Assembly (NCBI GenBank): GCA_030613915.1
Contig: JAUWKY010000071.1
Coordinates: 1 to 8,633, forward strand
DNA from: Syntrophobacterales bacterium
GTDB taxonomy: Bacteria > Desulfobacterota > Syntrophobacteria > BM002
Direction: 5' to 3'
DNA length: 8,633 nucleotides
This document shows positions 6,581 to 8,633 of the stretch, in pieces. Numbering within the stretch: the first letter of the stretch is position 1; each line of letters opens with the position of its first letter. The translations under genes and the position numbers were made by a program. Below the pieces are notes generated by a model. It was not told the DNA's origin and ran no database searches. It saw nothing but the letters and a program-made list of their open reading frames with translations.

Positions 6581-8458
6581 TCAGTAGCATCCCAGTATTT
6601 TGAGAAACTCGGCATTTTCCGAGAGCTCCTCCATCACCCCTTGAAGTTCATCCGATTCCAGGTCGGCCTCCAAGTCAACGTAGAACATGTACTCCCACGG
6701 TTTACCATGAATGGGCCTGGATTCCAGCTTAACCAGGTTAATCCCGTTTTCAGAAAAAATCTTCAAGGTATCAAATAAGGAGCCTGGCTTGTTGCTGGTG
6801 GCGTAGACGAGGGAAGATTTTTTCTTGGGGCCGTTGTCTAGTGCATGTGCTGCAATGACCGCAAAGCGTGTGTAGTTTCTGGCGTTGGTCTCAATGCCTT
6901 CTTTGAGTATGCTAAGCTCGAAGAGATCTGCTGCTTCTCTTGCTGCGATGGCAACATCGCCAGGGTTTCCTTCTTCTTTAACCCGGCGCACTGCTGTGGC
7001 CGTGTCCCTGGCCGCGACCAATTCCCAGCCCTGCTGGTTCTCCAGGAAATCGCGACACTGTTCAAGGGCCTGGGGATGAGAGATGACCCGTTTAATGTCC
7101 TCAAACTTAGTCTCAGGATGGCCAATGAGGGCATGGACGATCCGCAGGGTTATCTCTCCAACGATTCTAACGTCATACTCTAGGAGCAGATCGTAGTTTT
7201 CATGAATACTACCGGTTAAAGAATTTTCCAGAGGAATTACACCGAAGTCACTATTGCCCTCCTTCACCTCTTTGTAAACGGTGCGAAACGAGGATACTGA
7301 ATCGATGTTGATGCCGCTACCAAAGAACTGCATTGCCGCTTTGTGGGCGAAAGCTTGCATCTCACCGGCAAAAACAGCTCGTCTCTGGCTACCGATTCTG
7401 GACGAGGGCAAAATCGGGGCAGCGGTGGCTTTGTCCAGATAGCCGAAGTCAAGTTGCTTGCCAACCACCGGAGCAATTACATAAAGGTCTCTCATGAGCT
7501 GCCCAAACTGTTCCGGGTAGAGACTCTGGGGCCCGTCGGAGAGCGCCTTAGACGGGTCGTGATGCACCTCGATCATAAGACCGTCTGCTCCAGCGGCGAT
7601 GGCGGCTCGAGCCATTGGACTTACCTTTTCCCTGAGTCCAGTGGCGTGGCTGGGATCGATGACCACCGGCAAGTGAGTGAGGTTTTTGATTATAGGGATG
7701 GCGGAGAGGTCCAGGGTATTTCGGGTGTAAGGCTCAAAGGTACGAATACCACGTTCACAGAGAATAACCTGCTCGTTCCCCTCGGAAAGAATGTATTCGG
7801 CTGACATCAGCCATTCCTCTATGGTGGCTGAGAGGCCCCGTTTGAGCAACACGGGCTTGCCAATGCGGCCAGCGCTGCGAAGCAATTCGAAGTTTTGCAT
7901 GTTGCGGGCGCCGATCTGGACCACGTCCACGTACTTGATCATTAGGTCTACCTGGTTGGGAGAGGTCATCTCGGTGGCAATCCGTAATCCTGTTTCTTCT
8001 CGGACCTGGGCGAGAATCTTCAAGCCTTCCTCTCCCAGTCCCTGGAAAGAGTATGGTGAAGTGCGCGGTTTAAAGGCACCGCCGCGAAATAACACAGCAC
8101 CCGCACTTTTCACCTCCCTGGCGATAGTCATAGCCTGCTCACGATTTTCTATGGCACAGGGCCCAGCTATGACCACAATGCGGGGACCACCCAGCTCCAC
8201 ATCACCAATTTGGACCACAGTATCCTCGGGATGCATCTCCCGGCTTACCAATTTGTATGGCTGAGATACTGGCATTACTTTGGCCACTCCGGGCAGCTGT
8301 TCAAAAACCCGTATGTCGCGACTCACTTCACCCACCGCGCCGATTACGGTTTCGTCACCAGTGCTCATCTCACGGATGAGGCAACCTTCTTCCCTCAGAA
8401 TGCTGCGGACTTGCTCTTCTTCTTCTTTGCTCACTCCCTGTTTCAAGACGATAATCAT
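6581..8458 (-). CDS. aroF-pheA: Fused DAHP synthase / prephenate dehydratase with ACT domain
   Basis: A single 625-residue frame joins two aromatic enzymes. Residues 1-70 are the ferredoxin-like regulatory domain of Thermotoga-type DAHP synthases. Residues 75-338 are the barrel, with metal and substrate motifs GPCAIEN (C101), [11 protein letters not shown] (130-140), LLKRG (K206), DPSHATG (H271) and MIEVHHDP (E297, D301); it condenses PEP and erythrose 4-phosphate. A linker (339-358) leads to prephenate dehydratase (359-540), which makes phenylpyruvate: [10 protein letters not shown] (409-418) and NYTRF with catalytic T530 (528-532). Residues 548-620 are a phenylalanine-sensing ACT domain with PGSL (558-561) and ESRP (579-582). 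The usual GPEGTFS-like start of the dehydratase is AGEMQAFA here. No chorismate mutase domain is present. The start has GAGGAG 8 nt upstream. Domain calls are secure; coupled feedback control is inferred. Confidence 0.95.
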
Positions 8459-8486
8459 GGCAACAACTCCTCACAATTGTGATTTT

Positions 8487-8523
8487 AAAAACCAAAAGCC
8501 CCGGGGTGCCCGCCCCGGGGCTT
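8487..8523 (-). terminator. Rho-independent terminator in the aroF-pheA leader (attenuator)
   Basis: On the minus strand AAGCCCCGGGG (8523-8513) and CCCCGGGGCTT (8506-8496) form a perfect 11-bp stem with a 6-nt loop, followed by TTGGTTTTT (8495-8487). It lies only about 30 nt before the start codon of aroF-pheA, in the same direction, so it must be bypassed for the gene to be expressed unless a promoter is hidden in the A/T-rich 8459-8486. Confidence 0.85.
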
Positions 8524-8624
8524 GAGTTCAAATGGTTACTGAAGCAGTATTCCACCCCGAGGCGACCGGTTTCGGTCCACCCGGGGCTCAACGCCATGCG
8601 TTAGGAGACCGGGCGGACGCCCAT
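8496..8624 (-). promoter_or_regulatory. Alternative RNA pairings of an attenuation leader
   Basis: Four mutually exclusive pairings can be drawn on the minus-strand RNA. Segment 0 GTCCGCCCGG (8618-8609) pairs with CCGGGTGGAC (8584-8575), 10 bp with one G-U. Segment 1 CCCCG (8586-8582) pairs with CGGGG (8559-8555), enclosing GACCG/CGGTC (8577-8573 with 8568-8564). Segment 2 CCTCGGGG (8562-8555) pairs with CCCCGGGG (8520-8513), 8 bp with one G-U, an antiterminator. Segments 3 and 4 make the terminator. Small local hairpins lie at 8590-8602 and 8537-8549. Confidence 0.6.
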
Positions 8625-8633
8625 AAAAAAGAA
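8601..8633 (-). CDS. Putative Phe-rich leader peptide, C-terminal end
   Basis: Read from the right edge, the minus strand gives TTC TTT TTT ATG GGC GTC CGC CCG GTC TCC TAA, that is Phe-Phe-Phe-Met-Gly-Val-Arg-Pro-Val-Ser-stop. The start codon would be beyond the window. Three consecutive Phe codons directly before an attenuator of a phenylalanine-pathway gene match the logic of E. coli pheL, where ribosome stalling at Phe codons prevents termination. The T-run could instead be chance or the tail of an upstream terminator. Confidence 0.5.
   Translation of the reverse strand, partial: FFFMGVRPVS

Follow-up and report, generated by a model that had tools for sequence, protein, structure and literature searches.

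A predicted his-type transcription attenuator with phenylalanine codons upstream of a DAHP synthase-prephenate dehydratase fusion gene

The window analysed here, the entire contig C30 of 8,633 bases from a source genome of 351 contigs that is 79% complete, ends just upstream of a gene in which DAHP synthase is fused to prephenate dehydratase, and this raises the question of whether, and how, the leader of such a gene could set its expression. A first-pass annotation of the same DNA had proposed a phenylalanine attenuator. Our data make it highly probable that the leader, which lies before the fusion gene, works as predicted, as a ribosome-mediated transcription attenuator of the his type that would likely raise the gene's expression when charged tRNA-Phe is short. 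The elements of the locus are as follows, with the digits used for the pairing segments in the first-pass annotation given in brackets.

6581..8458, minus strand: DAHP synthase-prephenate dehydratase fusion gene, 625 aa, with ferredoxin-like, DAHP synthase, PDT and ACT domains
8467..8471, minus strand: AGGAG, from its sequence the likely ribosome site of the fusion gene, invariant in nine of nine aligned family leaders
8486..8497, minus strand: T tract of the terminator, the TTTTGGTTTTTA region, read from the sequence
8496..8506, minus strand: segment F, 3' arm of the terminator, from the terminator-like site and the E:F pairing in relatives
8513..8523, minus strand: segment E (3), 5' arm of the terminator, of which 8520-8513 pairs with D
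8554..8568, minus strand: segment D (2), 3' arm of the C:D hairpin, of which 8562-8555 pairs with E
8573..8587, minus strand: segment C (1), which pairs with B (through 8584-8575) or with D
8609..8618, minus strand: segment B (0), in the peptide frame 3' of the Phe codons, which pairs with C and, in relatives, with A
8601..8633, minus strand: 3' part of the leader peptide frame, Phe-Phe-Phe-Met-Gly-Val-Arg-Pro-Val-Ser-stop (codons 8633-8601, TTC TTT TTT ATG GGC GTC CGC CCG GTC TCC TAA), with the start past the contig end and the frame complete in the same-genus genomes G001, G003 and G007 (L083-L085)

The listed NCBIfam models match the two halves of the fusion and none spans the whole. Its best named relatives, among the best 80 of 593 stretches, belong to deltaproteobacterial and Desulfobacterales genomes, and the fusion proteins from eight genomes of the same genus or family are 83 to 96% identical. 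Exactly one PDT domain, within the fusion, is present in eight of the nine genomes of the genus, and none was found in G005, which is 62% complete; no prephenate dehydratase other than the fusion was found in the genus, whose genomes are incomplete. A CM_2 chorismate mutase is encoded as a separate single gene in eight of the nine, with none in G001, and the unfused DAHP synthase of the genus showed no such leader in the five genomes inspected by eye.

The elements on which the first-pass proposal was built can all be read in the window. The three Phe codons and the stop are present at 8633-8601; GTCCGCCCGG (8618-8609) can form the proposed 10-bp pairing with CCGGGTGGAC (8584-8575), including one G-U; the following hairpin joins 8587-8573 to 8568-8554 around a 2x2 internal loop; the 8-bp antiterminator pairing joins 8562-8555 to 8520-8513; and the 11-bp terminator, 8523-8513 with 8506-8496, runs into its T tract. 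When folded, the leader is more stable than its shuffles (z = -2.96, 1 of 200 as good), and the terminator is the sole terminator-like site in 8300-8633, where 0.7 are expected in shuffles. A search of the same interval found no promoter-like site, including between terminator and gene, where a promoter would have spoken against the earlier reading. A T-box or riboswitch was considered and rejected, with no Rfam match at cut-off in the window and all matches at E up to 10 falling below cut-off. Because the contig ends at 8633, the leader start codon, its ribosome site and a further segment, A, are absent from the window. The missing 5' end was sought in the window's own genome with a 196-base query and was not found; the 50 matches obtained, spread over many contigs of that genome (G000), all fell in query bases 1-50 (L083:1150-1199, 5' of the G001 leader) and none in the leader, and this stretch looks like a dispersed short repeat.

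Relatives supply what the contig lacks. Our sample held 47 distinct fusion loci (L004-L020, L048, L082-L111; L002 repeats L087, L003 repeats L089 and L098 repeats L008), drawn from a similarity search of which the best 80 of 593 stretches were kept, and it covers fusions with an extracted locus, so that those of, for example, G039, G015, G005 and G052 lie outside it. Five of the 47 were set aside, namely the cut window (L082), L013 (100 nt upstream, showing no leader), L092 (43 nt), L109 (133 nt, in which segments C to F are visible) and L017 (400 nt upstream, in which a leader was sought and none found), leaving 42 usable leaders. The G001 leader matches that of the window at 166 of 174 aligned bases, and complete leaders of the same genus or family read MRLGATYFAQFADGRFFFFFMGVRPVS-stop in G001, preceded by a ribosome site and an upstream TTGACA, and MRREATHSLDFRAGRFFFFCFFRIVRPAS-stop in G002. 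A short frame rich in codons for the end product, as an attenuator should have, is found in all 42 usable leaders; each has an in-frame start codon and a Phe run, and 36 carry a Shine-Dalgarno-like word. What the first-pass proposal depended on, namely a start codon, a ribosome site and orthologous Phe codons, is thus present in relatives. The densest eight codons of the frame hold 3 to 7 Phe, and an independent scan for at least 4 Phe in 8 codons recovers 40 of the 42. Applied to 43 spirochaete fusions for which 200 nt or more of upstream sequence was available, the same scan gave no short frame of this kind, the maximum being 3.

Promoter-like boxes also accompany these frames. By a -35/-10 script that allows spacers of 15-18 and always returns a best match, the best -35 match is an exact TTGACA for 36 of the 42 leaders, 29 of which have it 51-75 nt upstream of the chosen start. 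The script found TTGACA..TATAAT with a 15-nt spacer in L086, on which the promoter scanner was silent because of that spacer length. Between terminator and gene, L086 has one weak site, TTCACA-18-AATGAT, matching at 9 of 12 positions (0.5 expected in shuffles), which we take for chance since its second hexamer overlaps the start codon. In L005, L014 and L016, unlike the other leaders, about 100 to 270 extra bases separate terminator and gene.

The window by itself, with only three Phe codons and a terminator, would also suit a plain terminator of upstream transcription beside a chance T-rich frame, with no sensing at all, as T-rich DNA easily yields Phe codons. Against this stand the conservation in 42 leaders, the promoter-like boxes 5' of the frame, the absence of such a Phe frame from all 43 spirochaete fusions and the three-way compensatory changes described below, and we regard it as scarcely credible. 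Chance is ruled out mainly by conservation in relatives. The reading of the leader as a Phe attenuator is supported by the relatives' Phe frames and start codons, and by helices that keep their register.

In all 42 leaders, segments B to F can be aligned without a shift of register, so that each leader can form mutually exclusive antiterminator and terminator structures (B:C or C:D, D:E or E:F), and a C:D hairpin that competes with B:C stands between peptide and terminator, as in a his-type leader; it is seen in the window as well. Over the 42 leaders the paired cells amount to 94.0% for B:C, 86.9% for C:D, 87.5% for D:E and 97.4% for E:F. Cells changed on both sides number 18 for B:C (6.4 in shuffles), 28 for C:D (6.9) and 49 for E:F (14.8), counts reached by 0 of 500 shuffles in each case. 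The D:E helix is conserved, with covariation not above shuffles (8 cells, where shuffles give 8.4 and 331 of 500 reach that count). Covarying stems, a check named in the first-pass annotation, are thus seen for B:C, C:D and E:F and not for D:E. These shuffles ignore kinship, and their outcome is supportive rather than a set of probabilities. Also telling, because C pairs with both B and D, are three-way changes: in six leaders C5 is A and both its B and D partners are T, and L106 has the same kind of change at C7. B:C pairing at or below 15 of 300 shuffles is seen in 40 of 42 leaders, the misses being L103 and L107.

The relatives also add a segment that the contig end had hidden. An A segment resembling GGACGCUUCU, upstream of the Phe codons, pairs with a B segment resembling AGAAGCGUCC in 22 of 42 leaders; these were chosen by eye, and besides the family of the window they include a further 12 loci of Desulfobacterales type, together with L106 and with L048 from the cultured Desulfamplus magnetovallimortis. 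The 5 to 17 bases between A and B are mostly Phe codons. The first-pass layout stands for segments B to F, and is corrected by the addition of A, which would give a six-segment, A-F arrangement of the his type rather than one of the pheL type (A:B, C:D and E:F against B:C and D:E, as in a his leader and not as in E. coli pheL), with a stalled ribosome predicted to free B. With this change of layout, the first-pass reading is largely right.

It is possible, at a clearly lower probability, that the attenuator is simpler and has no working A:B, that only B:C, C:D, D:E and E:F matter, and that the match of A to B merely follows from the choice of codons. The A motif is absent from the remaining 20 leaders (in four of these, L099, L101, L110 and L008 of the cultured Desulforhabdus, a different match lies upstream, likewise no worse than 15 of 300 shuffles), covariation in the 6-bp core of A:B is not above shuffles (at least 112 of 500 reach the score), and the switch described below can be reproduced in simulation without A. 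On the other side, at least 9 of 11 pairs form in each of the 22 motif leaders and all 11 in 12 of them, A:B lies at or below 15 of 300 shuffles in 18 of the 22 (the misses being L083, L085, L048 and L106), and slid registers pair at no more than 49.2%, against 94.7% in the true register.

Under the his-type reading, the position of B would be decisive. B lies 3' of the Phe cluster, and its end falls somewhere from 11 nt ahead of the stop codon to that codon's first base; the Phe-cluster rule used for this position and for the shuffle tests splits the Phe run in L093 and L094. From this placement, a ribosome at the first Phe codons would free B and one at the stop would cover it. We modelled folding in the 42 leaders by removing sequence up to 12 nt past the A-site codon, an assumed footprint, in simulations that covered the window's nearest relatives L083-L085, the window itself, which is without A, lying outside them. 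With the transcript extending to E, median B:C pairing was 0.01 with no ribosome and 0.91 once a ribosome stood on the first Phe codon in the core run; on the last Phe codon it was 0.31, and on the stop 0.00. In the same order, the medians were 0.79, 0.04, 0.59 and 0.87 for C:D, and 0.04, 0.60, 0.31 and 0.01 for D:E. A switch to B:C with the ribosome at the first Phe codons occurred at equilibrium in 30 of 42 leaders, a count in which, as in the ribosome folding and the three-way-change check, the E:F and D:E values of L106 are unusable, the alignment holding its correct stretch. The 12 leaders with no switch at equilibrium are L089, which belongs to the window's own family, L012, L015, L016, L018, L019, L008, L091, L095, L097, L100 and L107. 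When the B stretch is shuffled, B:C, as a fraction of C, falls from 0.75 to 0.05 and the effect is gone in the medians. If the transcript extends only as far as D, or already contains the whole terminator, the equilibrium medians favour C:D (and E:F) at any ribosome position, so the choice would have to fall during transcription.

The mechanism suggested by these foldings begins with the Phe-rich frame seen in relatives, which would be translated. With no ribosome, the predicted structures are A:B, C:D and E:F, and transcription should end. Stalling on the first Phe codons, a ribosome would disrupt A:B and free B; B:C and D:E would then take the place of C:D and E:F, letting transcription run into the gene. 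When Phe is ample, the ribosome should reach the stop just after B and cover B, and C:D and E:F would form. One Phe signal would in this way govern the Phe branch together with shikimate-pathway entry, because no second prephenate dehydratase was found in the genus. A T tract (at least 6 T in 8 nt) also follows C:D in 17 of 42 leaders, so that C:D may be a first terminator there.

Could the peptide instead arrest the ribosome by its own sequence, or sense translation in general, with Phe not specifically measured? The peptide end (R-S-V-H/R-P) is kept in many leaders, as such a peptide might require. This conserved end coincides with segments B and A, and is thereby explained by RNA pairing, the Phe run being the other conserved element; moreover, leaders of the same layout before Trp genes carry Trp codons. 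We consider a peptide-driven arrest very unlikely.

These last leaders came from a wider search with a model, R1, of segments B to F of the fusion leaders, which scores the window at 81.9 bits. R1 matches at E 0.01 or better occur in 126 of 297 genomes of the phylum, of which several weak ones resemble plain terminators without a peptide. Besides the window, 12 matches reach at least 69 bits, nine of them with a Phe-rich frame and one, L119, with a Tyr/Phe frame; the other two, L117 and L125, were left out of the codon reading, as were L130, L140 and L145, the match position in these five short loci having been wrongly set. Matches of 32 to 46 bits with other codons were selected from a longer list, and their resemblance is that seen by model R1. 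Among these, L149, L150, L151 and L152 (G017, G015, G019 and G020) have Trp-rich frames, for example NWRWWWPIKGTHHGCAVG-stop, upstream of an unfused DAHP synthase, with the B-F layout at 32 to 43 bits by R1, from which another isozyme would answer to Trp. Trp codons are also found in leaders before TrpE (L131) and a TrpB-like enzyme (L132). Tyr/Phe/Trp-rich frames precede DAHP synthase in L143 and L144, and Tyr/Phe frames precede ADTH synthase in L155 and, with the gene assigned by likeness, in L156 and L141; MNRNMAGIFYYGYFYYFSTCLPVVC-stop is an example from these five. An Ala-codon-rich frame (MSRTSTLSAAAAATGSALAAAR-stop in L153) precedes an aminotransferase of the alanine/LL-diaminopimelate type in L153 and, by likeness to it, L154, and from its sequence is a possible Ala attenuator.

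Further short frames were noted beside these. Phe/Tyr-rich frames stand before a PLP aminotransferase in L133 and L137, both among the matches of 32 to 46 bits, and before a 403-residue protein with no NCBIfam match at 1e-60 in L164. Conserved short frames ending much like GRLALRGLPGGRSTAA-stop, with few Leu codons, precede 2-isopropylmalate synthase in L136, L138 and L165 (L136 and L165 by likeness). In Clostridia, L077 and L080 have Phe/Tyr-rich short frames 5' of an unfused DAHP synthase (MKKVFNYYFYNFYFFRPY-stop in L080), possibly aromatic leaders in another phylum, judging from the frames.

It is about an even call whether Deltaproteobacteria use one shared his-type relay (B:C, C:D, D:E and E:F, fed by a short peptide) as a modular sensor with exchanged codons. 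Phe codons would then serve the fusion, Trp codons the trp genes and the unfused DAHP synthase, Tyr/Phe(/Trp) codons further DAHP synthases as well as ADTH synthase, an alternative enzyme of pathway entry, and Ala codons an aminotransferase of the alanine type. Entry to the aromatic pathway would then be split among isozymes by leader peptides, not repressors. If the leader works as predicted, a single Phe sensor would control shikimate entry as well as the one prephenate dehydratase that the genus was found to have, and, if true, a his-type relay, linked by modelling presented in PMC1183508 to low basal read-through, would be used for another amino acid in another lineage. The leaders of the same layout with other codons form a natural series on the evolution of control codons and relay hairpins, and together these leaders, missed by every Rfam family at cut-off, suggest regulation for genes of mostly uncultured bacteria.

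Our literature search, which did not extend to most subscription journals, turned up no paper that deals with this leader or with an attenuator before this fusion. An attenuator predicted before aroA'-aroB'-aroQ-pheA-aroF-tyrA in Desulfovibrio vulgaris (PMC1173090, Table 7) likewise precedes aromatic genes in a deltaproteobacterium, with other genes, and is described there without leader peptide, control codons or segment layout. The annotated E. coli pheL (NC_000913.3 2737599-2737646) shares with the present leaders a Phe-run peptide before a prephenate dehydratase gene, alternative helices and a terminator before the gene. In E. coli, however, a 12-bp helix has the Phe codons as one of its arms, and TGGGAGGC, located directly 3' of the stop, pairs with a portion of the terminator, whereas here the pairing segment follows the Phe codons; no relay hairpin like C:D was seen in pheL, whereas here an extra hairpin lies between; and the gene here, unlike pheA, is fused to DAHP synthase. 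A model of our leaders scores E. coli pheL at only 13.7 bits. The Rfam Phe leader, that of gammaproteobacterial pheA, gave no match at E up to 10 in 8440-8633 or at E up to 1 in eight relatives. Rfam His_leader (RF00514) stays below its gathering score of 49 bits, with the window at 13.9 and L099 at 31.8. The his leader of enterobacteria has six segments, lettered A-F. Its layout of A:B, C:D and E:F set against B:C and D:E, its run of control codons and, as PMC1183508 sets out for his, an extra hairpin before the terminator recur in the leaders described here, which differ in having Phe codons and aromatic genes, the A motif in only 22 of the 42 and a T tract after C:D in the 17 already mentioned. 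The modelling in that paper credits the extra hairpin with low basal read-through, and the paper puts greater sensitivity down to how many control codons there are and what fraction they make up. The leader of the fusion gene is thus predicted to be a variant of the ribosome-mediated attenuator in which a his-type relay carries Phe codons.
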